DNA of 64,000 bases, taken from Antedon bifida. Taxonomy: Eukaryota; Echinodermata; Crinoidea; Comatulida; Antedonidae. This document shows positions 238 through 63,868 of this stretch, in pieces. The stretch covers positions 20,379,820 through 20,443,819 of the forward strand of contig OY727096.1 of NCBI GenBank assembly GCA_963402885.1, in the 5' to 3' direction. Positions within the stretch are counted from its first letter, which is position 1. Each line of letters begins with the position of its first letter. Made by a program: the position numbers and the translations under genes. The notes under the pieces are model-generated. The model was given only the letters and a program-made list of their open reading frames with translations, searched no databases and had not been told where the DNA came from.

Positions 238-366
238 TGTCTACACTATCAAACTACTTTGATAAAGTGTGATGTGCTCAAATATGGTAGTGATATGACA
301 TCATCATGTCCATATATGGGCACATCAAATTTTCTCACATAAAGTTTGATAGTGTAGATAGAGCTA
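238..366 (-). mobile_element. Foldback family A, copy 1
   Basis: Arms CTACACTATCAAACT and AGTTTGATAGTGTAG; middle GTGATATGACATCATCATG. Orientation is set by which end has the TTTATGTGAC arm; here it is at the right. Confidence 0.9.
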
Positions 367-534
367 TAGATTGTTAACTTACTAATTAACAAGTTACATA
401 TTGATGCTCTATTTGGTTACAAAGTTCATGCCAACAACAACGATGAGTCATCATTTCAGGATAATTTATTGAATATATTTGTTTTTATTGTAAGAAGATT
501 GGCAATTTGTGATATGTACAGTAGATGAATTAGA

Positions 535-610
535 GTTGTCGCTTGGTGGTTTATTAGATGTTTCACTGATCCATGTGGGTTCTGGGTTCAAATCCTGTCA
601 GATGTCGGTA
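535..610 (+). mobile_element. tRNA-like SINE fragment
   Basis: A-box-like TGGTGGTTTATTAGA and B-box GGTTCAAATCC at tRNA spacing; no paired acceptor stem. Confidence 0.5.
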
Positions 611-3163: not shown

Positions 3164-3328
3164 AAAGCCTTGTCTACACTATCAAACTTTATGTGTCAAA
3201 AAAATGTGATGTGCCCATATATGGACATGATGATGTCATATCACTACCATATTTAAGCATAGCACTACCATATATGGGCACATCAAATTTTTTTGACACA
3301 TAAAGTTTGATAGTGTAGACAAGGCTTA
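3164..3328. mobile_element. Foldback family A, copy 2 (symmetric)
   Basis: Both arms are of the TTTATGTG type and the ends are AAGCCTTGTCTAC and GTAGACAAGGCTT, so it is nearly a full palindrome. Confidence 0.92.
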
Positions 3329-3842
3329 ACACGCTGCGATATGGTGCATGAGTGAGTTGGGGATAGTCACATTTGATAGTGATACAGTAGGCCTCTCCAT
3401 GCCTTTTTAGCTTGTGTTGGACATCTACTTATAGTTTTCTATGACATACATCGTACTAAAAGGTGAAAGTTTAAATTCTCTACTCTTAAGTGTTTAGCTT
3501 AAGCTAAGCAATATACGAACATAGATCACTGCTGTGTCAGACAATGTGACTACATTAAGTATAATAATAATAATAATATAAATGTTTATTTTGTTGGCTT
3601 TTGCTGGTTGGCAGTATTTTAATCATTTCTATCTAAACACTCAATTCAGATTAATTTATTGGTAAAGTTGACAGACAGTCTTACCTGCTGTTAAGAATCT
3701 ATCTGATTGAATCTTAATGAAATTGATATGACATTATGTAGATCTTTAATTTCATCTCATTTCTATTGGATTAAGGAGCCTGACGATGTATGTGTACGAT
3801 AATTAATACCATGATGATAATGCTATTAAATGTTCTTATTAA

Positions 3843-3983
3843 ACTCTTTCTACACTATCAAACTTTATGTGAAAAAAAAATGTGACGTGCCAAAATATGG
3901 TAGTGATATGACATCATCATGTCCATATATGGGCATATCACATTTGTTTGTCACATAAAGTTTGATAGTGTAGACAGAGCTTT
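3843..3983. mobile_element. Foldback family A, copy 3 (symmetric)
   Basis: Both arms carry TTTATGTGA; the right end is intact (GTAGACAGAGCTTT), the left end diverged (CTCTTTCTAC). Confidence 0.9.
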
Positions 3984-4214
3984 AGCAAATGTATCAGTTC
4001 ATTAACATGTTTGTGAAAAAAAAATGCATTACATTATAAAATTAAAAGCTGAATAACATGATTGTTAGAGAGCACTTGTAACATTTACAGTACAGTATGT
4101 TCAAATATATTAACAGGTTCTCGATTATGGGGATGAAATATTATTTTTTAGTAGTCTTTGGCATCATTGGTCTTTTTTTATTCAATTTTTATGCTTCAAT
4201 TTAAGGTTTTTTTA

Positions 4215-4380: not shown

Positions 4381-4613
4381 ATAGTAGCTAATGTTTTGCT
4401 ACATTTTTGTATTTAATGTGTAGGGTTATTGGAGAAATCTCTGCTTTCAATCTTTAGTATTAACATTTGTTTTTCGTTGCATTTGACTGTGATTTAATGT
4501 ATCCTCCATACAGCATTGTTTTTTTCAACATACATGTAGTAGTAAATGATTAAAATCTATGCTCATAGCGAGTACAGAACACTATGTAGTTTATAGCTGC
4601 ATTCAAATGCAAG

Positions 4614-4853: not shown

Positions 4854-7800
4854 GGATGGATGAATGAGCTACCCTATGAATATGATGCTGACACCTACCA
4901 TATACAACAGACACACTCTGTTTTTCTACGTTTAGACGGTACAGTTCTACGTTTGCTTCAGCCAAAGGTCAACATTCCAAAACGAGCCATGTGGGATGAA
5001 GCTCTTCCAAAAGCTGTATTTGAACATCAACGGCATTATGATCTACGTGGAAGCAGCGTATTTTTACTCCCGGATGGACTAGTATCTAAACGGACATGGA
5101 GCAAGAAATACCCGATATGTATCAAATTCGAGAAAAAAGATTCTGATTTAAATACAGATGTTAAACCAGCTGAGGATAAAGAGGATAAAGTTGACAGTGA
5201 TTCAACGAAAGATCTACAAGGTTACGAGTTTATCAAAAAGGATGAGGTTAACACTAATGTAATTTATCTATTCGCGAGAACTGGCCGTGAGAAGGAAGAG
5301 TGGTTTTGGAAGTTTGAGACGGCCTCAAAATATAAAAAAATTCGAGGCAAAAAGCCGATACAGACACTAAACCGGCAGATTTATTTGCGTGGGAGTGAAT
5401 ACATAAAAGAGGACGGTACTAAACATCTTTCACGATTAGAACCTGAAGATTTAGCAAGTCAGAAAGGCGCCATGGATTTTTACCGGTACATTTCTAAAAT
5501 TTTACCAAAAGAGAAGGAAAGCACACCTCAATCGGTTAATGTGACATCCGGCGGCGTTACGTATGGTTCATCTTCACGCATGAATGCCTCAGCGAGTAAA
5601 GTCAGTCCTGATAGTGGTTTAACCGAGTCGCCAGTGTCGTGGGTCAATGCACTTTTAGGCCGTTTCTTCTGGGATTTTCTTCGCGAAGAATATTCCAAAG
5701 ACTGGGTGAAGAATAAACTGCAGAAAAAGCTTAGTAAAATCAGGGTAATTATTATTTTTTACTTTATTAAAAATGTATGATATATTTGTGCCTCACTTAC
5801 TCAGATAAACCGACAATAACTCTTGCTAGAGATGATGAAATTTTCTTGAACACCACCTCAACATAATGGACTAATCAAAATATTGTAATATAAATTTTGT
5901 TTATCTTATCTTTTCCAGGTTCCAAGTTTCATAGATGAACTGACCATTACAGATATTGACCTTGGGTTGAACAGCCCGCTTTTACGTCGAATGTCGCGCC
6001 CCCATATCGACGAAAAAGGGATTTGGGTGGACTTGGATATTGCATATAGTGGTTCGTGTTGTATGACACTTGAAACTAAAGTCAATCTTTGGCGACTGAA
6101 GAAAGGAGCGTCATTAGAACGAGAATTAGAAGAGATTTCGCCCGGTATGCGTAAGATGAGCCAGAAAAGAGAGCGGTGAGTGTTTTAATTACTGTGCTGT
6201 TCAATCTCTCATCACAGAGGATCTTGGGGCAAAATGTGGATGGGGTTGTAAATGTATCAACATTTTGTATTGGAATTACTAATGTTTTCAATACGATTGG
6301 CACATGTTCAAGGCTCTCCTCGACCATACTGTCCATAGTTCTGATGGTAGAACAAGAAGTCTTTGGGAGGGAAGGCTGTGGGAGGGTGTTACTACGGTGT
6401 TACTGGTTCATCTCAGTCCACTTGTTGTGGACAGGCGTGCCATTTGGTGGTAGCTATACGACATAAAGGGACCCTAAAGCTCTATCTACACTATCCAACT
6501 AGTTTGACAAAAAGTGTGATGTGCCGAAATATGGTTGTGATATTATATCATCATGTCCATATATGAGAACATCACTTTTGTTGTCACATAAAATTTGATA
6601 AGTGTAGACAGATCTTTAGAAGATGAAATTGTTTTATATGATATCTGTGTTACTGTAGTGTATAAGTACATTATAAATATACGCATCTGTAACTTGAAGA
6701 TCCTTCATTTATCCCGAGTTTATCATGGAGTTATCGTATCATGATTTCAAACGTAAATGCAATTGTAAACATAATAAAATTTAATAGTGGCTGATTATTA
6801 TCTGATGTTGTAGTTTAATACAAGTCACGATTCTACAGGATGACAGGAAACGGTTGTTTATTATGTGCAAAGCTTAAGTCACATGACCTATAGGATCCTG
6901 TATTATGAGAACTTAATTACGTTTATGATCTACATACATTTTACTTTCATTTGTGTCTTTCCTCAATCAGTTTTGATTTTCATTTGTCTTTATTTGTGTT
7001 CTCTCTAACAAATTCTGTAGAACTTCTGACAAGAAAAAAGTTAATAAGGATGATAATGACAGGTAGAACTGAAACAAATCATTGAAACATTTCACAGTGG
7101 CAAAAAAACAACAACAAACCAAAATATTACTATGTGCAATACAATCATGTGTTTTCTGTATTGCAGGTTTTCGATTATTCCATTTTGTAATGGGGTACAA
7201 GTAAACCAAATATCCCTTTAATTCAAATCATATCAAATCATTTCATGTTAAACAAAATGTACTGAAGCAGTAACACGTTTTATCCACATCATCAACGCCA
7301 GTCCCCTCCCCTTCCCTATAATATAATCTTAAATTATTTTTATTATTTATAGTAATAATATAATCAAATAATTTTTTATCATAATATAATGTACATAGTA
7401 TTATTGTTATTATTTGTACATATTCGTTGTATACCTCTTCCCTCCACCCTCTGAACCTTTTTTTAATTTTTAGGTAAGCCACTGCTTCTGCCATCCATTC
7501 ATATGTTTCCTCTAGCAGAGTATTGTATACAGTACTTTGAAAGTGAAACCATTGAGTAAAACCATCATGCCATTATCCTATTTTATTAAAGCACAATAAT
7601 TACCTTTACCATTTTCCAACAAACATATTAATATCAATTTGTTCTTTAAATAAACTTGTTATTTGATACCATTTTTATTTAAATTCTTCAGAAATGTGGA
7701 CAAGGATGATAATACCCAATATAATTTTGATGATGACAGGTATAAAAATATAAATTCATGAAATCATTCATAGGAGCGCCAACAACTACTACAGTTTCAT

Positions 7801-10800
7801 TTATTTCTCATCAATTTACACTTTACAGTGGCCATTAGTCATTCCTCCATACAGTACTTTTTCTTATACACAGTGATTTTCATTCATAAATATATTCTTT
7901 GATCTTTTTGAATGTTTCAACATGGATTATTTTTACATTCAAATATAAATTATGAAATATCAAAAAATGTGTTACGCATAATCTGGCTATTTTAATACAT
8001 ATTTCTAATTTTTACTATGATTATAAACATCTGTAGAATATGTTAATTTTTACAAACCATAAATCATAAATTGTCTTTTAGAATATTAAACATTTTTACT
8101 TTACCATTTAGGATTCATATTTTTTCCATATATTTTTCAATTAAAAACATTCTGCTGTTAAAGAAAGTTTTTGCATTCCATAAATAGCGTTAAATCGCAA
8201 TATATTTCATTATTGATCATATAAATTGTTTGGATTTCAATTAAAAGAAAGTTGTTGCATTCCATAATAGCGTTAAATCGCAATACATTTCATTATGGAT
8301 CATACAATTTTCAGTGGATATCAATTAAAAACATTCTTCTGTTGTTGTTGCATTCCATAAATAGCATTAGGTCGCAATATATTTCATTATGGATCATATA
8401 CATTTTTTGGATTTCAATTAAAAGAAAGTTGTTGCATTCCATAATAGCGTTAGGTCGCAATACATTTCATTATTTTATTCATGGTCAAACATAGTAAAAT
8501 ACAGTACATGGTTTGAAATTATTTTAGTTAAAAATCAGTTAAGTTAAAAAGTAAAAAATTCACATAAAATACAAAAATGAGATTAAAATTTAACGTGATT
8601 AAAATTTGGTAAAAATACAGATAAAATACATCGTTCTTCAAAATATAAGCAAGATTGGTGTGTGTAAAGCTCTGTCTACACTATCAAACTTTATGTGACA
8701 AAAAATGTGATGTGTCAAATATGAACACGATGATTTCATGGGCACATCACACTTTTTTGTCAAACTAGTTTGATAGTGTAGACAGAGCTTAAAGCCCCCT
8801 TCCCTACGTTTTTTAGATCTAATTTAAGATCACAAACTATATTTAATGTAAAAATAACACTATATGGTCCTATTGCGATAACTTTTTTCTTCTTTAAACG
8901 GTTAAAAATGTGAAAAATAAGTCGATTCTAATAATTATAGCGGCCCGCTATAAATCCCAAAATGCATTGCGCGCGGATTGATATTTTTGTTTTTCGCCTG
9001 TAATTCGCCAACTTTTCGATCGATCGTGAGGCCAAAACAAATGGAAGACTCCTAACTTTTCAGCGAAAATACCGGGTTTTCCCCAATTTGTATCAACGGA
9101 GTCTGGCAAAAATAGAAAGACAATTAATGCAGCAACTATACAACGTCAGGCTAGGTATATAGCTAGCGTACGATGTTCGTACGTTACCGATGTTTACCAG
9201 CTAGGCCTACAAAACTAAGCCTAACTAGGCTAGGCCTAAGACCGTCCACGAGAGGTTGATCGCCGCGAGCTACTTGGGTAGTGCATTTTTTCTCACTTTT
9301 TATCATAATTTACCATAAAACGTACATTTAAGACAAGGAATGACATGGTTTAATGTTTTTAAAGTGATATATATGTATTATTTTCCAAAAAACGTCCAAA
9401 ATTGCAGGGAAGGGGTCTTTAATAAGGTATAGCATAAAATGATCAACATTTCCATGTTCCATATAATTGCCTCATTATGTAAAGTATATCAATATTTCTT
9501 GTATTCCATCATTTGATTTCCATCATGTGATAAGTTATTATATTTAATTTGTTTTGAATTTGTGTATTTTGTAGTACCTGCTCTTCTTTATATTATTAAC
9601 TTTCTGAATTACATATAATAAGAGATATATCTATGGTGGTCTCAATTACAAACAACTAGTGCTAAGTATGATGTTGACAATCATCAGTAGTCATTGACTT
9701 ATATTACATGCTTACTTTTGTGATAAGACCTCTAATGCTTTTCTAGCTTTAAATCATGAAGAAATACATCCTTCAGGCTTAAGCATTTCAGGCTTTTTAC
9801 CATCACATGACACTGATGCTAAAATTAAATTTCCATAGCCTGCATTTTGTTCCATTTCATGTCATTGCTTCACCATATGCTACATGTTTTGGACATTATG
9901 TTTTGTTCTGGCAAATAAAATAAATCTGTTCTAATAATTACAATGATTCATGCAGAAAATCTGCCAAATAAAATTTTGGATCGTTCATGTTGCTAATTAA
10001 TTATCTGTTCTGTTGGTTAATACTTCTGTTTTTTGATATGTGGACCTTATTGTACCTTTCTTTATTTGATTATACCATTCTTAGTTTACGGATTGTAACT
10101 TGAACAAATGCCAATAATGTTTAAGGATATATATATTTTTATGTGTTTGATGCTAAGTAACTGAAGACTCAGATATGTTGTTTATCATACATCTATTTAT
10201 AGATATGATATAGAGTTGGGTTTTTTAGTTAACATGCTTGCTAAAGATGGAGATCTAAATGAATAATTTCAGAAACACAAACACATAATTGACACAAATT
10301 ACTTTGGGGACCACAAAGAGTTTTTTTTGGGGAGAAAGGGAGAGGAAGAAAAAACCTGTTATTTTGTTTATTTCAACAACTATATTTAACAAGCGTGGTC
10401 TATCCAAATTGAGCCTATTTCTAAACCTTGGTTACTTTAATATTTCATTAGGCAAAACACAGCAGCATTGAACAGTGATGAGGAGGACAGTGCAGAATCT
10501 TCAGATGATGATGAAGATGAGAATCAATCAATGGCCGATGGTGGCAGCAGCAGTCAGGAGGCGGACGGGTATAAAACAAACAAAAATATTTTTAACCTTA
10601 AAGGCCAATTTTCACAGACGAGCGGTAATGGTGATAACAATATAGAATCTATGTTATTCCTTATTACCATTTACACACAACGCCGACGGGCGGTTTCCGC
10701 TCAAGATAGATACATATTTTATGTGGGACAAGCTACACAGTTTTCTGCTTACCATTCCCACTCGTCTGTGTAAATTGGCCTTAAGTTAACAAAACATATA

Positions 10801-49000: not shown

Positions 49001-51982
49001 TTTAATAACAGAGTACCTACAAATGTAGTGATTGACTTATATCCACATACGTTATTATGTATATTCCAAATTCGGGTGATACTAATATACCATAGGGTAT
49101 GTTTAAACCAGTGCTAATACAATGATTGCTATTCTTTATCCAATCAGATGTTTCTAAATGACTATGAAGTAACCCCATTTGACGCCTTGTTGTACTTGAC
49201 TGGCGAGTGTAATTACGGAGGCCGTGTCACTGATGACAAAGATCGACGACTCTTGATTGCTCTCTTAAGTAAATTTTATAACCATGAAATTCTGGATCAG
49301 TCAAAATATCCGTAAGAGCATGTTATTTTGATCATTTTATTAAAAAAAATTAAACATCGTTCCTCTATCATAACAATGTGTTTGAGTTTTCATTGAGTAC
49401 AGGCCTGAATTGGCAAATGATATTTATATAAAATCTAATTGACAGGTTCTCGGATAGTGGTGATTATTATGCCCCAGATCATGGTGATTACACCAGTTAT
49501 CTGGACTACATCAGAAGCCTGCCATTGATTCCTCATCCAGAAGTATTTGGTCTCCATGAAAATGCAGACATCACTAAAGACAACCAGGAAACTCAACAGG
49601 TACTTAATAATACTATTAGACATGTATCTGGTCAATGACTCAAAGAATTCAATATTCTGTCCACACACACATTGGTACAAAGACACTGTGGCCGTATTCA
49701 CCAATCACACTTAAGTGAAATATTTCCTTTACATATTAAGTATTTCCCTTAAATTGTATTCACTTAGATAGGAGATTCCATTAGCCTAAGTGTGAATGGT
49801 TTTTTAAGATATGATAGGGAGAATATACATCCTCGGGAAGTTATCCAATTTTTGAATAACTTTAATTCTTTCATTTTTGCATTAAGCTTTTTGAAGGCAT
49901 TCTCTTGACACTTCCCCGTCAAACTGGTGGCAGTGGGAAGTCACCGCAAGAAGTAATCCAAGATCTTGCCAGCGATATCCTCTCCAAGTTGCCAGCAGAC
50001 TTCAACATTGAGGAAGTAAGTGTAAACTTTTGTAAATATCAATTGTAAATGGATCCACATTAAATCTCATCTAAATGAAAAAACAATGTATTGTTTGCTT
50101 TTAAAGGTGATTGAGAAGTACCCTGTAATGTATAACGAATCAATGAACACAGTCTTGCGTCAAGAGCTTATCAGATTCAATCGGCTAACAGCTGTTGTTC
50201 GTGTCAGTCTCCAGAACATCATCAAAGCCATCAAAGGACTGGTGGTGATGTCTGCAGAGTTGGAAGATGTCTTCAACAGTATGCTTGTGGGGAAGGTGCC
50301 AGCAATGTGGGCAGCCAAGTCTTATCCCTCACTTAAGCCCATGGGGAGTTATGTTACAGACTTACTGCAGAGGTATGTTTTCTTTGATACTGTACTTAGC
50401 CGATTCTCAGTACTGAACAGTATTTATAATTTGTCCAGTATCATAGGCGAATTCTGTAATAAAGTGTCCCATATGTATCACATACAATGCTAGTGTATCA
50501 TAGGCTATGAGCCTGACATAACATAATACAGGCATCATATGTGATACATTTGTGACACTGTATTACAGAATTTGCCAATAATACTGGACAGATGAATGCC
50601 ATATGTTGAGATGCAGTACAGGGAATCTGTCTTAGGTATTTATATAATATAGAAATTTACACAGCAAATACAATTAATATTATCTTTATTTTGTATATTA
50701 GATTGAAGTTTTTACAAGACTGGATCGATAATGGTACTCCAGAAGTATTTTGGTTGTCTGGATTTTACTTCACGCAATCTTTCCTAACGGGTAAACAAAG
50801 CTTAAACAATTATCAATTATTTCTAGAATAGACTACCAACTTCTTAGAGGCTTCCTGCTGATCACATCATGTTCACCACTGGTGGATGCTTGCTGAATAA
50901 GATTTTTCTTATTGTAAGTTACAAATATGTTGAAGTTGATATATTATTTTTGTTTCTAGGTGTAAGTCAAAACTTCGCAAGAAAGTACACAATCCCAATT
51001 GACCATTTAGGATTTCAGTTTGAGGTTACCAGCTATGAGGAAGACAGTGAGCCAAACAGACCAGAAGATGGTGCTTATGTAAAGGTTAGTGTTAACGCTA
51101 CACTTACTTTTGGTGGTTGGTTCTGGTTATTTTTACTTTACACATATTGCACATTTCTAATGCTCTGTGTATCAAACTAGTTTGACAAAAAAGGGTGTGA
51201 TGTGCCCAAATATGGTAGTAATATGCTTAAATATGGTAGTGATATGACATCATCATGTCCATATATGGGCACATCATATTTTTTTGTCATAAAGTTTGAT
51301 AGTGTAGAGCTTTATACTATAGTATCATCGCATCTTCTTGATTAGACCCTGCTCTGAGGTCCAAATTAGTTGTTCCAGTTTGTCTGTACTTTCCCACTGC
51401 TTTTGAGTGGAAATGAAGAGTTTCTCAATACCTTTAATTCTCTATGGCTAATTGTTTATATCTCATTTACATAATTATGAATAGACTGTACAGTTGTTAT
51501 AATTGTCTGCCTTTGGAATTATTGTTCATTCCTAATGATGATGATGATCAAATAAAGGTCGAAACGTTGAATCATGGCTTGCCTCTCGTTATTTGGAGTC
51601 AGTTTTATACTATGTATTATCTGCTTCTGTTTTTTTTGTTAGTTTGTTTTTGAAAATTCGTCATCTCTTTAAATTTATTTGTTAGGGTTTGTTTCTCGAA
51701 GGAGCTCGTTGGGACCGTGAACTCAAATACATCAATGAATCTTACCCCAAGCTGCTTTTTGATACGTTGCCCATCATTTGGCTAAAACCTGGTGAAAAGA
51801 GTAAATTCAGCGAAGAGGCCATTTACAGATGTCCAGTTTATAAAACAAGTGCTCGTCGGGGAACACTCTCAACAACTGGTCACTCGACAAACTTTGTCAT
51901 GATACTAGACTTGAGTTCTAACAAACCAGAGACGTACTGGATCAACCGTGGAGTGGCTAGTCTTTGTCAGCTTGATGATTAA
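19099..51982 (+). CDS. DNAH3: DNAH3, axonemal inner-arm dynein heavy chain (complete, 63 exons)
   Basis: A complete gene: ATG at 19099, TAA at 51980-51982, 63 coding exons totalling 12,174 nt (4,057 residues; human DNAH3 is about 4,100). All junctions keep phase, and all introns are GT-AG except intron 5 (GC-AG). The product is a single-headed inner-arm dynein motor of cilia and flagella. Order: tail and linker (1-1352), AAA1 with P-loop GPAGTGKT (1369-1376), AAA2 GDPMGGKT (1650-1657), AAA3 GPTGTGKS (2011-2018), AAA4 GIGGSGRQS (2373-2381), stalk with microtubule-binding tip (about 2533-2890), AAA5, AAA6 and C-terminal region ending SLCQLDD. DNAH3, rather than DNAH7 or DNAH12, is favoured by the N-terminal segment (PLPPEG...[20 protein letters not shown]) and the C-terminus. 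Exon coordinates are given in the part entries below. Introns hold most of the transposons in the window. Confidence 0.97.
20451..20766 (+). mobile_element. Family F element, copy 2
   Basis: TTAAAGATGTATTGTCCCC ... GGGGAACAATTCATCTTTAA, 316 bp, DNAH3 intron 2, reversed relative to copy 1. Confidence 0.88.
21225..21353 (-). mobile_element. Foldback family A, copy 7
   Basis: Left AAGCCTATCTAGACTATC; the right arm has a deletion (CACATAATAGTGTAGACAG). DNAH3 intron 3. Confidence 0.88.
21768..22052 (+). mobile_element. Family B element, copy 2, with nested insertion
   Basis: Same ends (AAGGCCAATTTACACAGAC ... GTCTGTGTAAATTGGCCTTT) but about 100 bp longer because another element lies inside (21844-21910). 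DNAH3 intron 3. Confidence 0.85.
21844..21910. mobile_element. Small TTAA-flanked element nested in family B
   Basis: TTAAAGAGGG ... CCCTCTTTAA, about 67 bp, bounded by TTAA. Confidence 0.6.
22897..23043 (-). mobile_element. Foldback family A, copy 8
   Basis: Well preserved: GAAGCTCTGTCTACACTATC to AGTTTAGACAGAGCTAC. DNAH3 intron 3. Confidence 0.92.
23782..24081 (+). other. DNAH3: GC-AG intron 5 of DNAH3
   Basis: Exon 5 ends ...TTAGAG and is followed by GCAAGT, the classic strong GC donor context; the acceptor is CAACAG before CGTTAT. This joins DLE to RYHYY in frame, as in the conserved protein. No usable GT donor sits at the required position. Confidence 0.8.
25116..25275 (+). repeat. Dispersed repeat (SINE-like), copy 1
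   Basis: Shares GGTTTAGCACTCCTAAGG and the block AGTAAGCGCTCATAGCCATT with 25925-26013. DNAH3 intron 8. Confidence 0.6.
25540..25678 (+). mobile_element. Foldback family A, copy 9 (decayed right end)
   Basis: Left end has lost CTGTCTAC; the right end breaks into AGTAGTAGCATAGTATG. DNAH3 intron 9. Confidence 0.85.
25925..26013 (+). repeat. Dispersed repeat (SINE-like), copy 2
   Basis: GGTTTAGCACTCCTAAGG then AGTGAGCACTCATAACCATT; shorter than copy 1. DNAH3 intron 9. Confidence 0.6.
27021..27106. mobile_element. Tiny foldback element K
   Basis: GCACTATACAACCCC ... GGGGTTGTATAGTGGGTC with GAGAGGCG/CACCTCTC continuing the stem; about 86 bp, DNAH3 intron 11. Confidence 0.8.
27570..27730 (+). 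mobile_element. Foldback family A, copy 10
   Basis: Ends AAAGCCTTGTCTGCATTC and TAGTGTAGACAGAGTG; an extra middle repeat (TATCACTACC twice). It ends 51 nt before exon 13. Confidence 0.9.
28264..28502. mobile_element. Inverted-repeat element G
   Basis: CACTAATACCCTTTTCACAT (28266-28285) and its perfect complement at 28481-28500, 20/20 bp; about 235 bp in DNAH3 intron 13. Confidence 0.88.
29571..29710 (+). mobile_element. Foldback family A, copy 11
   Basis: TTAAGCTCTGTCTACATC to TTTAGACAGAGCTTTA in DNAH3 intron 14, only about 66 nt before exon 15. Confidence 0.92.
30327..30465 (+). mobile_element. Foldback family A, copy 12
   Basis: TTAAGCTCTGTCTGCACTATC to TAGTGTAGATACAGCTTAA in DNAH3 intron 15. 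Confidence 0.92.
30628..30860. mobile_element. Family D (pogo-like) element split by foldback copy 13
   Basis: CAGTAGAACCCTTTCATTGG starts at 30628; after the family A insertion at 30659-30803 the sequence continues GGGAGACTTTTCTGTGAAAT..., as in the other family D copies. The right terminal repeat is eroded. Confidence 0.65.
30659..30803 (+). mobile_element. Foldback family A, copy 13
   Basis: AAAGCTCTCTCTACAATTTG to GGTGTAGACAGAGTTTA; inserted into an older family D element. DNAH3 intron 16. Confidence 0.9.
31799..31934 (-). mobile_element. Foldback family A, copy 14
   Basis: TAAAGCTCTGTCTACACTAT to GTGTAGGCAGAGCTTTA in DNAH3 intron 19, starting 8 nt after the donor of exon 19. Confidence 0.9.
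33777..34962 (+). other. DNAH3: DNAH3 AAA1 motor module, exons 25-26
   Basis: Exons 33777-34176 and 34669-34962, residues 1353-1584. Walker A GPAGTGKT is at 33823-33846; Walker B ACFDEFNR starts at 33970; sensor-I-like region [11 protein letters not shown] follows. AAA1 is the main ATPase site of dyneins, and every expected catalytic residue is present. Confidence 0.93.
34225..34470. repeat. Tandem duplication of about 120-135 bp in DNAH3 intron 25
   Basis: CAATTGATAGTAAAGAATTG occurs at about 34225 and 34347, and GCAAGTCTAATGCTTGGTTC at about 34264 and 34399, in the same order. Confidence 0.8.
35012..35158 (-). mobile_element. Foldback family A, copy 15 (right end lost)
   Basis: Left end complete; the right side stops at CACATAAAGTTTAGTACC. 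The middle has the GTAGTGATATG unit repeated. DNAH3 intron 26. Confidence 0.88.
35678..35812 (+). mobile_element. Foldback family A, copy 16
   Basis: TTAAGCTCTGTCTACACTATC to GTGTAGACAGAGCTTTA, about 26 nt after the donor of DNAH3 exon 27. Confidence 0.93.
36336..36493. mobile_element. Family D element (pogo/Tigger-like MITE), copy 1
   Basis: CAGTAGAACCCCTCCTTTGG at the left and TAATAGAGGTTATA at the right. CAGTAGAACC ends recall pogo/Tigger transposons. DNAH3 intron 28. Confidence 0.7.
36909..37077. mobile_element. Inverted-repeat element H
   Basis: TTAAGGCCAACTCGGACAGC ... GCTGTCTGAGTTGGCCTTTA, about 169 bp, DNAH3 intron 29. Confidence 0.88.
37865..37950 (-). mobile_element. Foldback family A, copy 17 (half element)
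   Basis: Only the left half remains, ending at GGTAGTGATATGCC; 18 nt later comes the acceptor of DNAH3 exon 32. Confidence 0.85.
38246..38440. mobile_element. Family C element, copy 1, interrupted
   Basis: AGTGGCCGTATTCACG ... GAATATGATCACTG with TTAAGGGAAAT/ATTTCACTTAAG inner repeats; split by the TTAA element at 38312-38397. DNAH3 intron 32. Confidence 0.75.
38312..38397. mobile_element. Nested piggyBac-like MITE
   Basis: Bounded by TTAA on both sides, with inverted ends ACCCTTTGAAGAC and GTCTTCAAAGGGT, 86 bp in total. The TTAA boundary and CCCTTT ends are typical of piggyBac-derived MITEs. Confidence 0.75.
41541..41582 (+). other. DNAH3: Possible 42-nt cassette exon in DNAH3 intron 40
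   Basis: Acceptor ATAAACAG and donor GTTGTA bound 42 nt that read [14 protein letters not shown] in phase 0, the phase of the surrounding junction (...AARVE | GRKIEATP). Inclusion would add 14 charged residues just before the stalk side of AAA4. The main model omits it because the human protein has no clear counterpart. Confidence 0.3.
42077..42213 (+). mobile_element. Foldback family A, copy 18
   Basis: TGTCTGTCTACACTATC to GTGTAGACAGAGCATTA; part of the middle deleted. DNAH3 intron 40. Confidence 0.9.
43206..43333 (+). mobile_element. Foldback family A, copy 19
   Basis: The left end is shortened to GAAGCTATC, the right end GTTTAGACGAAGCTTC. DNAH3 intron 42. Confidence 0.88.
43832..44019 (-). 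mobile_element. Family B element, copy 3 (opposite orientation)
   Basis: AAAGGCCAATTTAAACAG ... CTGTGTAATTTAGCCTTA. The internal GTAGATTCTATATTTTTATA block is in the opposite order to copies 1 and 2. DNAH3 intron 43. Confidence 0.85.
44340..44867 (+). other. DNAH3: DNAH3 microtubule-binding domain, exons 45-46
   Basis: Exons 44340-44557 and 44756-44867, residues 2729-2838. Contains [47 protein letters not shown]. This is the stalk tip that contacts tubulin. Confidence 0.88.
45407..45470 (+). repeat. Degenerate duplicate of a DNAH3 stalk-exon segment in intron 47
   Basis: 64 nt that match 45019-45082 of exon 47 at roughly 85% by eye. They still read [19 protein letters not shown] against [19 protein letters not shown]. 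The copy lies immediately before the poly-T tract and acceptor of exon 48 and is in frame with it, but no acceptor precedes it, so it is treated as non-coding. Confidence 0.85.
45715..45870. mobile_element. Family D element, copy 2
   Basis: CAGTAGAACCCCTCTTTTGG ... GTCCCTTAATAGAGGTTCTA; terminal repeats about 18 bp. DNAH3 intron 48. Confidence 0.75.
48597..48731. mobile_element. Foldback family A, copy 20 (symmetric)
   Basis: Both arms resemble CTTCATGTGAC/GTCACATATAG; ends TGCTCTGTCTACATTATC and GTGTAGACAGAGCTTTA. DNAH3 intron 55. Confidence 0.9.
49686..49806. mobile_element. Family C element, copy 2 (right end eroded)
   Basis: CTGTGGCCGTATTCACCAAT ... CCTAAGTGTGAATGG; same AAATATTTCC and TAGATAGGAG inner words as copy 3. 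DNAH3 intron 58. Confidence 0.75.
50431..50592. mobile_element. Long-arm foldback element L
   Basis: TTGTCCAGTATCATAGGCGA ... AATAATACTGGACAG; arms run about 65-70 nt each with few mismatches (ATTCTGTAATA, GTATCACATA). DNAH3 intron 60. Confidence 0.85.
51160..51313 (-). mobile_element. Foldback family A, copy 21
   Basis: Both ends have short matching deletions (CTCTGTGTATC; TAGTGTAGAGCTTTA). The middle repeat unit is doubled. DNAH3 intron 62. Confidence 0.9.
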
Positions 51983-52799: not shown

Positions 52800-54065
52800 A
52801 AACATTTTATTTTTTATTTCAACAATATTTTATGAGGGTGGTCCATCCAGCATCAGCTGATCATTAGGGACCCTCAAACAAACAGTAAATACAAAATAAA
52901 CTATAAAAACACAAAATTAACAAAGATATAAAAAATAAATATAAATATATATATAAAAAAAAACAGTAAGCCCACAATGAAAGAAGGAAAAAAAGAAATA
53001 AAATCAGAGAGAGAGAAACAGGTGTTTTTTCAAAAGAGATTTAAAGGAGGAGAAATTGTAAGAATTACGAATGCTTAAAGGTAGAGAATTAAAGAAAGAA
53101 GGAGCATTGAAACTAAAAGAAAGTTTAAAGATTTCAAGGTAAGGACGAGGAATAAGAAGATCTCCTTTAGTAATTTGCCTAGTGTTCATACGGCCGTTGG
53201 AAGTTACTTTAGTTAAAAGCTGACAGATAGTAAGAGGAGCAGAGTGATGTAGAGCTTTGAAAGATAGACAAGCAAGCTGAAAGAGGTATCGTTCATGGAA
53301 GGGGAGAGTCTTAGCACAGGAAAAGTGATGAGGAGAGAGATGTGTAGTGGGTGATAGATCGAGTAGTAGACGGATAGCTTTATTCTGAATTTTTTGAAGT
53401 TTAGTGGTAGAAGAAGGTTTAGAACCCCAGACAGAGCAGCAGTAGTCAAGTCTAGAAAGGAAAAGTGAATTGTACAGAAGATGAAGAGAAGATTTGTTAG
53501 TAAATTTAGAGGTACGTTTGAGTAAGTAGATAATAGAATTGAGTTTTTTACAGAGGGAAGATATGTGAGATTTCCAGGTTAGAGTATTGTCAATTATGAT
53601 TCCAAGGTGTTTATGAGAAGTAACAGATTGAATTGGAGAATCATTAAGAGTGAGGGAGATAGAGTTAGATTTAAGTTTTTGAGAAGAGCCAATGAGCATA
53701 GATTTAGTTTTTGAGATATTGAGAGTTAGTCTGTTAGATTTTAGCCAGGTAGAGAGATGAATTAGAGCATTATTAAGATTCTGTTCAATAAGTTTAGAAG
53801 AGGAGTTAGAATAGTAGATGATGGTATCGTCAGCATACATGTCAACATGTAGATTAGAGTTATGAGAGATTAGAGAAGATGAAAGGTCGTTAATGTAGAT
53901 GGAAAAGAGAAGAGGACCAAGAGTGGAGCCTTGAGGAACACCAGTAGAAAGAAAACCAGAGGAAGAACGAGTTTTTTCAAAAAGAACTTGTTGAGAGCGA
54001 TTAGAAAGATAAGATCGGAGCCAAGACAACATTGAAATGGTTGCGTTACAAAATATATAAAACAA
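52800..54065 (-). mobile_element. 5'-truncated non-LTR retrotransposon (LINE, CR1/L2/Jockey-like)
   Basis: The ORF 54065-53004 on - has 353 residues and holds the second half of a reverse transcriptase: [19 protein letters not shown] at residues 42-60, the catalytic YADD at 77-80, then the thumb and C-terminal zone ([50 protein letters not shown]). Endonuclease and N-terminal RT motifs are missing, as in the usual 5' truncation during target-primed insertion. The 3' tail near 52800-52870 contains AATAAA-type A-rich repeats. The ORF is still open over about 1 kb, so the copy is young. The clade is assigned from motif style only. Confidence 0.88.
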
Positions 54066-54361
54066 AAAATAAAATAAAACGGGGAATTGTTACTTAATTA
54101 ACAAATTAACAACTCCCTGGTATAAACACAGTAGATCCATGCATGGTATTAAACAACCCTTTTTCTGTTTGATCATAAAATAAACACTTACGAATCTAAA
54201 AATAGGCCTAACTACTGTCAGCGGACAACAACGTCACCTGCAACGCAAAATATGCAAAGTTTTACTGCTACCACGTGGGGCCGGGAAGAGTTTCAGACTG
54301 AACTTTGGTATGACGTAATCATTACCAGTGATGTTGCTGAATGTTGATCTAGGCCTAAACA
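54066..54361 (+). promoter_or_regulatory. Upstream region of the methyltransferase gene
   Basis: About 300 nt between the LINE and the ATG at 54362. Local G+C rises around 54220-54300 (CAACGTCACC, CCACGTGGGG). No TATA box stands out. Confidence 0.3.
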
Positions 54362-57300
54362 ATGCGTCTTTACCTGGGGAAATTGTTTCGAAAAGTGACG
54401 AATAAGCATCTTTTTGCAAACCAAGGGCATGCTGAGCTTTATCTTAAATATCGACCGACTTACCCAGACAGTTTAGTATCACGTATTATTGAATATTTGC
54501 ATCAGGGCAGAGTTGATAATGTGAGCAATAGTTGCTAACTTACTAGCTTAGCTAGAGGGGAGGTAGTGTATAGGCTATATACCGGTTATGTTGCATTTAG
54601 CCCGCGAACTGTGCTTTGGACGTTTGCCTTTGTCATTGTCACATACAGAGCACATCGCCGGCTGGATATGGAACGCCCAAATTCATAATACGCCACCACT
54701 GACAAATATTTATTGTGTTCAAACCGAAATAATAATAAAATTACATTAATTCAGTTGGCCTAAACTAAACCACTGACTGACCAAGGCCATGTGAAAATGC
54801 AGTAATTTTGTTGTATTTTTACTGCTGTTAATTTAGAAACCTGATGGACTGGCAGTTGATGTAGGTTGTGGGTCAGGTCAATTCACTAGGTCCCTAGGTC
54901 AACATTTTGACCGTGTCGTCGGAGTGGATGTCAGTGAATCACAACTAGCGTCAGCAAGATTGGTGCCACGTTCAAATATAGAATATCTGTAAGTGAAATA
55001 AGTAATAATAGAAATTCTCGCTCTTGAAATTAAAGAGGAGTTCAGAGGGCAAGTCTTGCTCTGAAATGTTTATTTGAATACAGTATGCCTTTATTTGAAT
55101 ACAGTATGCCTTTATTTGAATACAGTATGCCTTTATTTGAATACAGTATGCCTTTATTTGAATACAGTAGTATGGTGTTTTGACCTTTACATCCTCGCCA
55201 TTCATTTTGAATTAGAATGGATTGGTTTTTTTTTCTTTTTGTAGAAGTGGAAGCGGAGAAAGTATCCCAGTTTCGAATGGATCAACGGATTTGATAACCT
55301 GTGCCATGTGTATTCATTGGCTGGATTTTCCCAAGTTCTGTGACGAGGTTCAAAGGGTATTGAAGCCAAATGGATGCATTGCTGCTTTTGGATATGAAAT
55401 GCAATGTTGTCGAGTTAATGGAAAGAAAGTTGAGAAGATAGAAGAAGCGTACAATAAGGTAATTACAGTATATAATTGATTATTTCATTTAATGTTATTT
55501 TTATATTAATATGTTCAGGAAAATTTAAGGACAATCATTCATTATCCTTTTTGAAGGTAGCAAACCAGTTCTCAGACAATTGGATGCTATACATCGACGT
55601 TCTACAAACCATGGGCTGCGGTTCAAATTAGGGCAACCCCAAATTAGGGCAACCCCAAATTAGGGCAACCCCAAATTAGGGCAACCCCAAATTAGGGCAA
55701 CCCCAAATTAGGGCAACCCCAAATTAGGGCAACTAAACACTATATGGGTTATCCTTGGCATCGCCAATGTTTTAAATAAGTTGTTGATGTTTTGATCTTT
55801 GTTTCCTGTATATAGTCATTGTATTTTATCTGTAATTGTGTTTTATGATGCTGAAATAAATCAAACCATTCATGATTTTGAAAGTTAATTCAAGAGAAGA
55901 CAAAGCCATATTGGACACCAAATAGAAAGCATGTATTCAATGGATATGCAGATATTCATTTACCATTTGAAAATAATGAACGGTTAGTTACTTTGTCTTT
56001 TTAATTTGGGAGGGCTAACTTAAGCTATAATTATTAAATAAAAATCTTGGATTCTACACTAGTAGTCAGGCATCTAAAGCCTGGCGCACACTGTAGCTAT
56101 CAGCTGAGCCAACTGGCATAACACTTTGCTCACTAAAAAATTTGCCGCAAACTGTGATCGTGTTCTGTCAGACGCATACTAAATGTTTCTGATTGGATAA
56201 TTACTTTCTACGCTATACGGCCGCGCTGACATATTATAATAAATTAGAACATGTCATGCGCAGTGGAATTTATTAGTGAGCTGTTAGCTCACATTCGGCT
56301 CACACTTGAGGAAAATGAAAAGCATGACAAACAATATTAAACACGATAGATATTTTCCTCAGCTGCATGCATGGCCGACTCCTCATGAATTTTCCGGCGC
56401 ACACTGTGAGAAAAGTGTTATTCGTGCAGGTTGGCTCAGCCGATAGCTATAGTGTGCACCGGGCTTAAAGTAACTTAGTAAGTAGACTGTCTGACGTCTT
56501 TATAGGTGTGTACTGAATACCACCATGTCTCAACAAACTTAGCAATGATTGTGTAGAAGGTGCCTTACCTTGAAAACCTATTTTTTACATTAAACTTTTT
56601 GAGCCATTGACACACCTATTAATTGAGAGATCCTTCCAAAATACATTCAATAGTTTTTTAAAAAGTAGTATTTTTCCCAGGATAAAGTTAAATGTTAAAT
56701 GGTGATCGAGCTTTCGCAGTTGCAGCTCCAAAACTGTGGAACAATCTTCCTGATCCTATTAAAAATGCATCCTCTATCATAGTTTTCAAAACACCCTTAA
56801 AACCCATCTTTTTTCTTTGTAATTTCTTTCTGTTTTTTCTCAGCGTTTTGGGACAATCTTTTGATTGTATAAAAGCGCTATATAAATCGAACAACATTAC
56901 ATTACATTATATTGAATGCTTATTTTAGGGATAATTCTCATGTGATTAACCAGGAGATAATGTTGTCTGATTTTATCGGATGCATTCAGTCGTTGTCATT
57001 CTACCAAAGTTACATCAAAGACAACCCAGAAAAACAAGAGGCTGCTATTCTGTTCCAACAAAGGTAAAGTTTATTAATTTGTCCATAGCCAGGGAAGGGG
57101 ATTTGAGGTGTCGAACAAACTGAAAACAAGCTTATAATATATTGACATGTTTTGTGTGCCGGTCAGTTACGTTCAGTTGCTCGGAGCCTTAACCACCATA
57201 AATTTCAAATCAGTGTAAAACAATATCCTGGATATATATAGCGCCTAATGTTGTGAAACCTTTAAGCGCTGAAATATTATTACCCCAGTCATTTTTTTGG

Positions 57301-58638: not shown

Positions 58639-60028
58639 CTATTCAATAATATTTCTAAAACCTATAATTCCGCTGTATATATTTTCTGAAGCGTGAATGC
58701 CATACTCTGCCATTTTCATTGACCCACCGCCTACGTAACGCTTTGCTTTGTTTAAACTAAACGTTTTTATTGACTTAATCGATGCCACCGAACCACGGTG
58801 CTGGTTATCATAATCATGCGGCCACTGGTCAACAACAGGTTCGGGCTGTGCGTCCTCGTTATACGAGATGACGCAATATATTTCGTTGCTCACATCTGGG
58901 TACTTGCACATAGATAAATGCGTCCGAGTTAGAATGCAAATACCCTGATCGCTTATGTCGTGGTATTCATCTTCCTGTAGGTCAAAGGTCGTTTCTTGAT
59001 CTTCAGCTATAGATTGAAATGACGCATCTGATTGCGTTTCTAAGTATCCATCTAGTGAACTTCCCAACAAACTAGACCCGTCTACTGATATAACACACAT
59101 TTCTTCTTGTGAATCTTCCCGAGAAGAATTAACAGTTGTCAGTGCTTCTGATCGTTCTTCTGATCGTTCCTTGTGGCTTATTGCAGTTCTTGAAGTCTTC
59201 TGACCGATCGTGTTCACAAAATACATACTATACCCAGCGGCGTTTGCTGATATGACTTTGCGTTCTGTAGACTCAATTGATATACTGTCCGTTTTCTCAT
59301 GTTCATCATCCGCGCAGAAACCATGATTTTGTAAAGTACCTGTTTCACCTTGTTTTTCTGTGTCGAGTATTCTGCCATTCCTGCATGAGATTGCGAAATG
59401 TTGGTCGCAGAAAAAATAAAATAAACTAAATTAATGGATTTTAAAAGGAAGTTTTATACATTAATTTTTGGTCAATGAAATTAGACTACAGTATCGGGTT
59501 TCTGAAGTAACACATCCATATAAAAATAAATTAAACAAATAGAATGTAAAGCTAGCTCTGTCTACACTATCAAACTTTATGTGACAAAAAATGCGACGTG
59601 TCCATATATGGACATGATCTCATATCACTACTATAATAGGCATATCACTACCGTATTTCATGGGCACATCACACTTTTTTTGTCCAACTAGTTTGATAGT
59701 GTAGACAGAGCTTTAGGAAAGTCCAACACTTCAATGTTTAGGCGATGGCTCCACCCACCTTCTTCTATTCCTGGATCCGCCTTTGTAATAAACATTCTCA
59801 GAAAAAATACCAATCAAAATAAACATTTATTTCTCTTTCTTTTCAAATACAAGAACAAATTTATAAATTATATTAAACGAAAGAACGGGCAAATAAGTCC
59901 TTTAATGAAATTAATATTAAAACGTTTGTTTCTTACCAGCGGTGGAAAAAGCACAGAATAATCTTGACAACAACGACGACCAATATGGAGCTGACTATTC
60001 CTATGACAATAGTTGAAACTCGTCCCAT
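58639..60028 (-). CDS. Unrecognised single-pass membrane protein, 277 residues
   Basis: Two exons: 60028-59937 and 59380-58639 (stop TAG); 834 nt. Donor GTAAGA and acceptor ATGCAG join CTG|G as Trp in frame. An in-frame TAA lies three codons before the ATG. Residues 5-28 form one strong hydrophobic helix (STIVIGIVSSILVVVVVKII...), preceded by only MGRV and followed by basic HRW, which suggests a signal anchor with most of the protein on one side. The rest is acidic and Ser-rich without clear domains, with short tyrosine motifs IYCVISY (about 197-204) and IYSGII (about 265-270) that could act as YxxI sorting or SH2-type sites. No family was recognised. The coding evidence is frame continuity across a good splice and sustained non-repetitive ORF length. 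Confidence 0.72.
59552..59715 (+). mobile_element. Foldback family A, copy 22
   Basis: AGCTCTGTCTACACTATC to GTGTAGACAGAGCTTTA inside the single intron of the membrane-protein gene. Confidence 0.93.
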
Positions 60029-61835
60029 GCTGAATTAGCTCATCTGTTATGATAATAAAGATGTAACGTATGTGACGTATTTTATGGTAAGGCAACTCTA
60101 GCGAACTTTATCATTCCCGTTATTTAAGACAATTAAGTTGGGTATTTTATTAATAGTAGCTTCAAAGATTTATTTTAAATACTAGACTTATTTTGAAACC
60201 CATGGCCGAATTCACCAATCACACTTTCCCTAGAAATATTTCCCTTAAATTTTAAGTAATTCATTTAAATTGTATTCACCTAGATAGGAGGATTTTTAAG
60301 TGTTTCCCTTAGCCTAAGCGTGATTGGTGAATATGGCCACTGACCTACCCTTTTAAGTGTGTAGTATTTACAATCGCTCGCAATACTGTATAAATAACAA
60401 CAAGGATTAACTGGCGGTTCCATTTTTTCCAAAAACGAATCCATTTAGGCTATTATCTGAGTGCTAATCTCCGATGACAATAAATAAGTTTTATTATGAT
60501 GCTCCTTTATCTATGGTCAGCAATAGCCCAAGGGTAACCAATATACCTTTAGAATAGCCTATTGCACCCACCTGTTAAGTGTAGGCCTACTTTAAAAACA
60601 CATATTTTGTTAATCCCGTTCCATTTTTGTCGACGATCAGAATATTTTGTGAATACCTACATATCTTGGAACTCATTTATATTATGGATGAACTGGACCG
60701 TATAAATGAACTATGTTTCAATAGATAAGCCATAAAAAGAATTGCGAAGCAACAAAAAAAAAAAGTACGAGATATAGGTCTAGTTGTACAAAATAATAAT
60801 GGTATGAGCATAACAGTTTAGCTAATTATTATTAGCTAACTATATAGCTAAATTCACACTATTACGGTGTTTTAGATCACACGTATACGTTTTGTGAATC
60901 CGAACGCTGTAAACGGTTTTGTATCCTTAATTTATCCGGCCGGATCTCAACGTAACTTAGCGGAGTCTTATCTGTATAGTTCTTAAAGCATGGACCTATA
61001 GGTTAACAAGCCAAAACTGATTTGTGAAAATTAACTTTACAAACCGTAGTCACAGCAAATAAACAGGTCACTGATACATACTACTACATGAGGTAAATGT
61101 CCAATCCAGCTGGGCTATAGAAGTGAATACACATTAACAAACAAACAGGAACATTGCTTCCTACAGCAATTAAAACGTTCAAGTACAGTATTAACATTTA
61201 AACTCCAACCCCGTTGTTAATTATTCTTGATATGAATAGAAGAAGTCAACTCTTTAATTCAAGGTTGGAGTTTTTTTTATGCGTAAAAAGATTAGGAAGA
61301 ACGAAATATTTTCTCTTGTTCGGATACACAATAGTTTGTTATTAAAATTAAAATCAGGTCAAGCATGAAGGTATAAAAATAGTTAATGTGAAAAAAAATT
61401 GCGATAGGCCCTGATTTTGCCGCTTAAAGTTGTTTAATAGGCCATGATAATTGTTTTATTTAAATATTTATTTATTTTAAAACCTTTTATTACCAATGAG
61501 CGTGTAGAATCGGTCTGACGACGACCAATAGTAATTATCTAATAATGTTTTATCTTGTCATTTTGAAGATGTCAAATAAAATATTAAGTAGTAACATTAG
61601 ACGAGGTGACTGTTTGTTGCTCTTTAATTTCAATATTTGGCCATTGGTAGCGTTTAGACATCATCTTATTGCACGTGAAAAAATGAAGCATCCATATGAG
61701 AAGAGAAGAGAAGAGAGAGAAGATGATGATTCTGGTTGGTGGCGCTATATAATAGAAAGTAAAAATTGTGCACAAGGAATTTTTAGGAAACAAAATTCTA
61801 AGTTTTGCTTAAATCCTGCACATGATACGTTCAGT
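60029..61835. other. Intergenic region between divergent membrane-protein gene and NDUFB10
   Basis: Contains one inverted-repeat element (60202-60342) and a short 11-bp inverted repeat AAACTCCAACC ... GGTTGGAGTTT (61200-61274). It must also include both promoters and possibly a missing first exon of NDUFB10. No other coding sequence was recognised. Confidence 0.5.
60202..60342. mobile_element. Family C element, copy 3
   Basis: ATGGCCGAATTCACCAATCA ... TGATTGGTGAATATGGCCAC, about 140 bp, the best preserved copy. Confidence 0.85.
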
Positions 61836-63868
61836 ATGGGCATTATTGATGACTTTATATTGTCTACATTATATTATACAGTAGAGGCACCCGTAACGTT
61901 TGCAAGAGGTAAGATAATATTGCTAGGCCTATGGTAGGCCAGCTAATCAAAATAAAATGGTGGTGGGCCGCGGGGATTAGGCGAGCTGACCCGCTACAGG
62001 AACTGTTGTGGTGATTCAAGTGTTTCGGCCTAGCGGCGACCAACACTGGTTCTGTCTTTTGTTTGCATATGCAAAATGTCACTTAGCCTGCGTAATTGTT
62101 TGTGTGTGTGTGTTATAATATTAAATTATGGATCTAATCTTATTATTCATTTGTTTACTGTTATAATAATTTTATTATATTCATGTTAGGCCTATATTCA
62201 TTTAAATTTATTGTTTAAAATTGCAGATTTTATTGAAAGACAACATGCGAAAAACCCCACAAAGTACTATCATCGCAGATATCCTAGGGTAACAGACATT
62301 TGGGACTGTAATGAAGAAGATATAGTTTGTATGTTTGAGGCTGACTCACAGTATAAAAGAGACAGGTATGCTGGCCACTATCTTAAAACAGTAAACTGTT
62401 ACTATAGTTTAGTAGCTTATGGGATTGGGTCTACACTATTTTAGAAAGTGTTATGTGCCCAAATATGGTAGTGATATGCCCAAATATGGTAGTGATATGA
62501 CCAAATATGGTAGTGATATGACATCATCATGTCCATATATGGGCACATCACATTTTTTTGTCACAAAGTTTGACAGTGTAGATGGCATAGAATGTCTAAA
62601 AAAACTATAACAGTATCACGCCCACCCATTGCCATACCTCAGTGTGATTTTAAATGTTTCTATTTTTTTTCAACACAGAATGGTTGATCAGGAGATACTG
62701 TCCTTGTTGAAGAAGGCAATGGGTAAGTGTGTGGCTGAACAAGGTAACAGTGCTAAGGTGACCTGCAAAGCATATTTAGATGAATATGAAGAGGCAGCTG
62801 ACAATTTCTACACTAAATGTAAGTCTTGGAAAAAAGTATAAGAATAATTTGTTATTAGGTATGAAGTGCTCTATTTTGTACAGGCATATTAAAAACACTG
62901 TGGTTAGGAACTCAACTGCCCATTGTAACAGATTCCGACAGAAACTATTACTGTACACTGGGACCTAAAACGTCCCTCTAGGCAATGGTGGGTAAAGACG
63001 ATGATGGATAAAGACGATGATGAATAAAAGACAATTTTTTTAATTTAAAAAAAATGTAAAAAATTGATCGAGAATTGAACCTACAAAACCACTAGTCCCC
63101 TAGCCGCAGTACCACACCACTAAGTCAGCCAACCAGTCGCAAAAATTGGTGTTAACCTTTGTACATGAGGTTATAAAAATGTGCATGCATGGGCGATTTT
63201 CAATTGACCAATCAATTGCATTGATTCTGCCGAAATCCTAACCACTTTGTATAAAAAAAATGTCTTTATTGCTGGTGGACTAGTGCAAGATTATTGCAAT
63301 CAATATATAAAAAATATATAATTCATTTTACAAAAAATACTGAATAAAAAGTAAAAAAACAGAAAAAAAAAGACAGGGTACCCAACCGTGCAAGAAAAAA
63401 GCAACTACCCACGATTAAAGATACCAGTGTTGATAATAAAGTTCTTTGATCTATTGGTTTTGAACTTTGGTAAAGGAAATTCAGTGACAATTGTTATGAA
63501 AAGAGGTGGAAGTAGGTTGTGGAGGATATGACTAGGGGTTTTCAGTTTTCGGAAATAATCTTTGCACAGTCGGGTACGACAGTCTTCAAGCAATGGAATA
63601 AAAAAGAAAGTGCCTCATCGTACATAACCCAAGGAAGTATAATTCTAGACGCCCTCTTCTGAATTTGTTCCATTTGTTTTAACAATCTGAACCTTTGGTT
63701 AGCGAAATGGCATGTGGGCTAACAACATAATTCTAAAATTAATTATGTCGATTTTCTTCTATAGACTCAGAATTAGGCTTCCATGGAAATGCAAGAAGGT
63801 GCTACGCTAAACAACAACATAGGATGGTAGATGAACGAAGGAAAGCAGAACAAGAACAAGAAAGCTAG
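61836..63868 (+). CDS. NDUFB10: NDUFB10, mitochondrial complex I subunit (N-terminus uncertain)
   Basis: Exons 61836-61908 (start uncertain), 62227-62365, 62679-62818, 63765-63868 (stop TAG). From ATG 61836 this gives 151 residues; the human protein has 172. [22 protein letters not shown], split here as [10 protein letters not shown] and YYHRRYPRV, plus [20 protein letters not shown], the Cys pair KCVAEQ...[10 protein letters not shown] and [11 protein letters not shown] match the NDUFB10 family, including its conserved cysteines. It is an accessory subunit of the membrane arm of NADH dehydrogenase, oxidised and imported through the intermembrane space. About 20 N-terminal residues are missing. 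They may sit in an unrecognised upstream exon (an AG lies just before TATGGGC at 61833-61834), or the frame may start farther up in the ORF open from 61545 (for example ATG 61683). Intron 3 holds a SINE and a LINE remnant. Confidence 0.9.
62428..62585 (-). mobile_element. Foldback family A, copy 23
   Basis: Middle unit CCAAATATGGTAGTGATATG is present three times in tandem; the right end is TTTGACAGTGTAGATGG. NDUFB10 intron 2. Confidence 0.9.
63060..63140 (-). mobile_element. tRNA-derived SINE fragment
   Basis: On -, A-box TGACTTAGTGGTGTGG and B-box-like GGTTCAATTCTC. NDUFB10 intron 3. Confidence 0.55.
63401..63700 (-). pseudogene. Decayed LINE reverse-transcriptase C-terminus
   Basis: On - it reads [19 protein letters not shown], then after a one-nucleotide shift [17 protein letters not shown] and [10 protein letters not shown], the usual tail of a non-LTR RT ORF. 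The frameshift and missing upstream RT mark it as dead. NDUFB10 intron 3. Confidence 0.75.

Follow-up and report, generated by a model that had tools for sequence, protein, structure and literature searches.

The 64,000-nucleotide window analyzed here, a stretch of the Antedon bifida genome (assembly GCA_963402885.1, contig OY727096.1, positions 20,379,820 to 20,443,819), carries many copies of a short, almost self-complementary repeat that we call family A. Family A is new as a family, belongs to a known kind of element and is strikingly abundant. It is probably a non-autonomous miniature inverted-repeat transposable element (MITE) of the PIF/Harbinger type. An earlier note on this window had described a single foldback MITE family and had tied that reading to a genome-wide excess of copies and to signs of transposition; both were found and support the MITE reading. 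The element inserts at TWA, preferably at C-TWA-G, with duplication of three bases. Copies range from 94 to 186 bp, a size that leaves no coding capacity, and they would be mobilized in trans by a Harbinger-type transposase, as the duplication and the target suggest.

The genome-wide excess is evident from the exact 19-base end of the element, which occurs 14,473 times (7,290 + 7,183) in the window's own assembly (315.6 Mb, 27 contigs), against 0 occurrences of a reversed-letter control in the same 315.6 Mb. Ten 10-kb stretches placed at round coordinates contained 13 family A copies (1,814 bp). Extrapolation from 130 copies per Mb, or from the ratio of 23 window copies to nine exact ends, gives roughly 37,000–41,000 copies genome-wide, with an error of nearly twofold (n = 13). 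The copy density of the window is higher than that of the sampled stretches (p = 0.003), the window having been noticed because of its copies. Rfam gave no match in the window at gathering thresholds, no stretch of viral contigs contained the exact 19- or 20-base family A strings, prokaryote genome contigs had no match to one exact 20-base string, and four 17-base strings of the family A end did not occur in the literature searched for them.

The element proper extends from AGCTCTGTCTACACTATC to GATAGTGTAGACAGAGCT, and the consensus, read with the L arm first, starts with AAGCTCTGTCTACACTATCAAACTTTATGTGACA and finishes with TGTCAAACTAGTTTGATAGTGTAGACAGAGCTT. Both arms agree over their outer 24 bases, diverge over the next dozen (the L and R spacers) and agree again further inside; each copy is thus one long imperfect hairpin. 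For a broader view we used a larger set of 76 full copies with at most 3 mismatches at both ends, of which 11 come from the window, seven from random stretches and 58 from 97 stretches picked by an exact end; the latter choice biases the set to young copies. A 21-bp unit (ATATCACTACCATATTTGGGC) near the loop is present zero, one, two, three or four times in 3, 31, 35, 6 and 1 of these copies, respectively, and its spacing is exactly 21 in 45 of 50 steps. Regarding the arms, 49 copies are of type LR, six LL and two RR, with 19 unclear. The least diverged copy differs from the consensus by 0.8% in this set biased to young copies, and family A is partly recent. The family A profile matched at all 97 exact-end loci, with a single match of 115 positions or more at 39 of them and over less at 58 (barely at locus L102). 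Different elements that merely share the family A ends were considered and dropped, as no other interior was seen among these 97 loci.

An nhmmer search of the window with a profile built from 17 hand-picked copies detected 23 separate loci between 232 and 62591, which together span 3,286 bp (5% of the window). The count of 23 copies between 238 and 62585 in the earlier note is thereby reproduced, and 20 dinucleotide shuffles of the window gave no match at E ≤ 1e-3. All copies but one are near full length (22 of 23, 124–168 bp), the other being an 88-bp remnant at 37867. An end is degraded or lost in several near-full copies, e.g., 25531, 35013, 43202, and 62424. The end given in the earlier note is exact at nine places in the window (four plus, five minus), and 34 places have it with at most 4 mismatches. 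Divergence of the 22 near-full copies from the consensus averages 9.2% (3–18%), and their tree is star-like. The 100-bp flanks of different window copies show no mutual similarity at E ≤ 1e-3. The copies are thus separate insertions, and local duplication was ruled out as their source. The copies are as follows, with the strand given from L arm to R arm:

232–366, minus: family A copy
3165–3327, plus: family A copy; its R arm copies the L type, with a single difference between the arms over 58 positions
3841–3982, minus: family A copy; outer R arm with L-type sequence; flanks TTA/TTA
6477–6616, minus: family A copy; flanks TAA/TTA
8667–8790, plus: family A copy with two exact ends; flanks TAA/TAA
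10992–11151, plus: family A copy; degraded left end
21225–21353, minus: family A copy; flanks TAA/TAA
22897–23044, minus: family A copy
25531–25694, plus: family A copy; degraded ends
27571–27733, plus: family A copy; one extra 21-bp unit
29572–29708, plus: family A copy; flanks TTA/TTA
30328–30464, plus: family A copy upstream of the exon at about 30507–30597; flanks TTA/TAA
30660–30801, plus: family A copy downstream of the same exon; splits a repeat starting at 30626; flanks TAA/TAA
31801–31931, minus: family A copy starting three bases past the GTAAGT donor (31792–31797) of a DNAH3 exon
35013–35176, minus: family A copy lacking one end; two 21-bp units
35678–35810, plus: family A copy with two exact ends, 22 nt beyond the point where the alignment of a DNAH3 exon stops; flanks TTA/TTA
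37867–37954, minus: family A half copy, its end about 12 nt ahead of the point where the alignment of a DNAH3 exon begins
42075–42214, plus: family A copy; flanks TTA/TTA
43202–43333, plus: family A copy; degraded left end
48597–48728, plus: family A copy; R arm with L-type spacer; flanks TAA/TTA
51160–51312, minus: family A copy ahead of the last DNAH3 exon
59553–59713, plus: family A copy downstream of DNAH3
62424–62591, minus: family A copy; degraded ends; several 21-bp units

The flanks of the 76 full copies point to a defined target. Their 152 ends have T at position −2 in 133 cases, A or T at −1 in 144 and C at −3 in 64, so that the element reads TWA-AGC...GCT-TWA. Of the 29 intact ends in the window, 15 have C before TWA, whereas the other TWA sites of the window predict 14% (p = 2e-6). 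The left triplet is identical to the right one in 37 of 76 copies; re-pairing of the right sides gives an expectation of 24.6 (p = 0.0003). For the 65 copies outside the window the numbers are 32 observed and 20.8 expected (p = 0.0006). When registers were compared, the 3-bp register (37/76, expected 24.7, z 3.8) led all those with more than a handful of matches. In addition, the copy at 30660 interrupts a dispersed repeat that begins with TACAGTAGAACCCC (start at 30626) and has uninterrupted relatives at 36334 and 45713. The joined flanks of this copy align over the junction, with gaps, to 45713–45776 (49/64) and 36334–36383 (41/51); a third match, to 45849–45866 (16/18, E 0.42), is alone not significant. 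These alignments show an interrupted repeat, not an exact duplication. Only these joined flanks, out of 16 tested, match elsewhere in the window. Equal TWA flanks above chance and the splitting of another repeat by one copy are the signs of transposition referred to above.

Several results weigh against the assignment to PIF/Harbinger. The equality of triplets is not significant in smaller sets, neither in the window (8/18) nor in a Fisher test (p = 0.24) nor in the strict copies of the window (5/11, p = 0.30) nor in the first 60 loci (15/36, p = 0.076). Furthermore, the 56 copies with intact TW and WA comprise 38 with equal flanks, 15 with TAA/TTA and three with TTA/TAA; the 18 that differ in the middle base exceed the expectation from point mutation, which should seldom exchange just A and T. 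An unequal middle base is also found in copies with two exact ends (8 of 18 having A or T on both sides). The excess of TAA/TTA could stem from a hairpin-templated change of the flank base or from a second, 2-bp insertion mode; copies with unequal flanks do not have more similar arms (p = 0.14). For comparison, mPing with non-matching TTA/TAA flanks transposes less than matched elements (PMC4561436). Lastly, an autonomous partner would have the ends of family A and encode a Myb-like protein along with a transposase carrying DDE_Tnp_4, the Harbinger-type transposase domain, but the family A end within 4 mismatches was found at none of the ten DDE_Tnp_4 loci inspected; one of them, L125, has a single end site with 5 mismatches and no partner.

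Matches to this domain are numerous, with at least 150 in the genome, many in open frames and several sharing identical scores at many places. In the window, no DNA transposase was present among 17 open reading frames (ORFs) tested, i.e., 14 of the 34 ORFs of at least 100 aa and three shorter ones; one of the 17 is a reverse transcriptase. We also observed DDE_Tnp_4 matches that are nearly identical, each containing a single TAA stop, clustered at intervals of tens of kb over about 21.5–22.2 Mb of contig G000:C8; this cluster is perhaps a large tandem or segmental array. A 361-aa open frame at 53004–54089 (minus strand) of the window contains an RVT_1 reverse transcriptase domain (E 6e-19) and represents a retroelement fragment.

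PIF/Harbinger elements duplicate TWA and have a terminal inverted repeat starting with A or G (PMC4482050), and their target preference reaches beyond the target site duplication (PMC2836001). Family A shows the 3-bp TWA duplication (37 of 76 equal, though the middle base is unequal in 18 of the 56 intact pairs), starts with AGCTC under the TWA register and extends its preference to the C at −3. The same C, present at 64 of 152 ends, recalls the C-T.A-G frame described for the NuwaII group of the PHIS superfamily, with target C-TNA-G (PMC4482050). We consider a NuwaII-type MITE, instead of PIF/Harbinger proper, unlikely: NuwaII takes any middle base, whereas family A has A or T at 144 of 152 ends as in TWA, and PIF/Harbinger elements too show preferences beyond the duplication (PMC2836001). 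Still more improbable is a TA-targeting transposase (Tc1/mariner, Stowaway-like) or another one, with a TWA duplication that is only apparent. The TAA/TTA flanks of 15 of the 56 intact copies would then equal a 2-bp TA duplication around an element that is one base longer at each end, but no other class fits, the equal TWA of 38 of the 56 is not given by a TA duplication, and the 2-bp TA register is absent from the top 15 registers. ISL2EU elements, with their 5'-AT-3' duplication within A-AT-T (PMC4482050), were ruled out by the flanks, i.e., T at −2 (133/152) and A or T at −1.

As a PIF/Harbinger-type MITE, family A resembles Tourist-like MITEs such as mPing, which also combine a TTA/TAA target and its duplication with a preference past the three bases and a non-autonomous nature (PMC4561436, PMC2836001). 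The proteins that mobilize mPing are known, whereas the transposase of family A is putative, and unequal TAA/TTA flanks are common in family A. With the NuwaII group of PHIS transposons it shares the C and G around a T.A core, but that group allows any middle base (PMC4482050). The palindromic Harbinger repeat of about 200 bp in Xenopus tropicalis (PMC5625713) is likewise short, near-palindromic, self-folding and abundant in transcripts; family A differs in its length of 94–186 bp and its variable 21-bp loop unit, and the two are likened by description. The Xmix/Xstir, miDNA4 and Pearl elements (PMC9659126) are also MITEs with an internal tandem unit, which in family A is 21 bp long, lies in the loop and is present in zero to four copies. 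Foldback (FB) elements in the strict sense have long inverted repeats made of tandem subrepeats; the tandem unit counted in family A is that of the loop.

In three window copies (3165, 3841, and 48597) the R arm contains L-type sequence. The two arms of 3165 have deviations from the consensus in common, and one variant found in both, AAGCCTTG, is also present at one end of 27571 and of loci L044, L075, and L085 and is thus not private to 3165. The three copies group in the tree with a support of 0.95, so a single event that then spread fits equally well. It is conceivable, if quite doubtful, that family A keeps itself palindromic, with the hairpin templating the rewriting of one arm by the other and sometimes extending across the outermost flank base. 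Such rewriting would join the L-type right arms, the homotypic copies elsewhere, the expansions of the 21-bp unit in the loop and the excess of TAA/TTA. The homogenized arms concern few copies (three in the window; six LL and two RR of 76). As a general process, arm homogenization was rejected: within-copy arm similarity is only marginally above that of re-paired arms (p = 0.051), and copies with unequal flanks have no more similar arms, as given above. Together, the rewritten arms and the flank puzzle make hairpin-templated sequence change amenable to testing; if rewriting were true, a DNA transposon family would maintain itself as a source of intronic double-stranded RNA across the genome.

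RNA transcribed from family A probably folds into double strands, as judged by structure prediction. Compared with shuffles of the same sequence, folding is stronger in all 22 near-full window copies (z −2.7 to −26.5), unlike in the half copy at 37867 (z −0.9), which supports the self-folding described in the earlier note. A single copy would form a hairpin of some 50–60 base pairs, and many intronic copies would give local double-stranded hairpins in pre-mRNAs and close copies could form copy-to-copy duplexes. For 172 of 231 copy pairs, a duplex is predicted to exceed two separate hairpins in stability, with a mean energy of −155 kcal/mol in opposite orientation (117 pairs) and −115 kcal/mol in the same orientation (114 pairs), and in the minimum-energy fold of three neighboring pairs examined the copies pair chiefly with each other. 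The pairing across introns suggested in the earlier note is therefore predicted by folding; opposite orientation favors it without being a requirement. Self-folding would nonetheless be the safer expectation because hairpins can form first during transcription.

The regulatory effects proposed for these RNAs (editing, small RNAs, splicing) are predictions from folding. The likeliest consequence would be adenosine-to-inosine (A-to-I) editing of the intronic hairpins that leaves the mRNA largely unaffected, given the frog precedent: the Xenopus tropicalis repeat mentioned above is the most edited repeat of that species (PMC5625713). We should also mention that pairing between copies 30328 and 30660 could loop out the exon at about 30507–30597 and promote its skipping or a circular RNA. 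Their minimum-energy fold has 87 pairs between the copies and six within each, and reaches −157.3 kcal/mol versus −121.2 kcal/mol when pairing is limited to 170 nt; in C. elegans, reverse-complementary matches around exons promote skipping and circular RNA (PMC8330042). This looping is a folding prediction and appears rather improbable, since the hairpins can close during transcription ahead of any partner, the copies are diverged and star-like as passengers would be, and the similarity of the exon to DNAH3 is weak (no match at E ≤ 0.001; E 0.4, yet in order with its neighbors). If neither RNA hairpins nor rewriting holds, family A is an ordinary, very abundant MITE.

The assignment of DNAH3 in the window is based on exons that match PDB chain 8j07_g3, which carries the label dynein axonemal heavy chain 3. 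This chain is the top match for the exons at 31534, 37966, and 35276, and ranks second, behind a dynein-length chain labelled otherwise, for others; the last exon (51686–51979) encodes Dynein_C. TEX2 is tentatively indicated by matches to Pfam PH_SMPa and MMM1, both below threshold. The earlier note placed sixteen or so copies in introns of these two genes. Nine of the 23 lie between supported DNAH3 exons (30507–51979, one exon being weakly supported), and six more (21225 to 30328) putatively lie in upstream DNAH3; the figure of sixteen or so is therefore plausible. The accompanying statement that no copy is in an exon holds for four exons examined next to copies: protein homology of exons 31534, 34669, and 35276 stops short of the copy, and that of exon 37966 begins past it. 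As about 12 nt separate the half copy 37867–37954 from the first aligned codon, the branch point of this intron may lie in MITE-derived DNA. A second half copy (L111:42-110) is located just upstream of an exon that is kinesin-like as read by eye. If hairpins form in RNA, DNAH3 has one per about 2.4 kb over the confirmed stretch (nine copies, 30507–51979), and it would be a natural place to gauge the tolerance or editing of abundant nuclear double-stranded RNA and splicing effects around exons.

Within DNAH3, 59 bases are duplicated (45018–45076 and 45406–45464, 90% identical) and read as coiled-coil coding sequence, an apparent partial exon duplication. The window also contains a second inverted-repeat family with ends AAGGCCAATTTACACAGACGAG at 10597–10782, 21765–22050, 43830–43888, and perhaps 36907–37079; its exact 21-base end string is absent from viral contigs. 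A direct duplication of 130 bp (8167–8296 and 8344–8473) is 93% identical, and a tandem array of the 16-bp unit CAAATTAGGGCAACCC spans 55608–55751. Finally, a 42-nt inverted repeat (AAGCCTGGCGCACACTG) at 56077–56466, whose arms are separated by 306 nt, possibly represents another transposon family.

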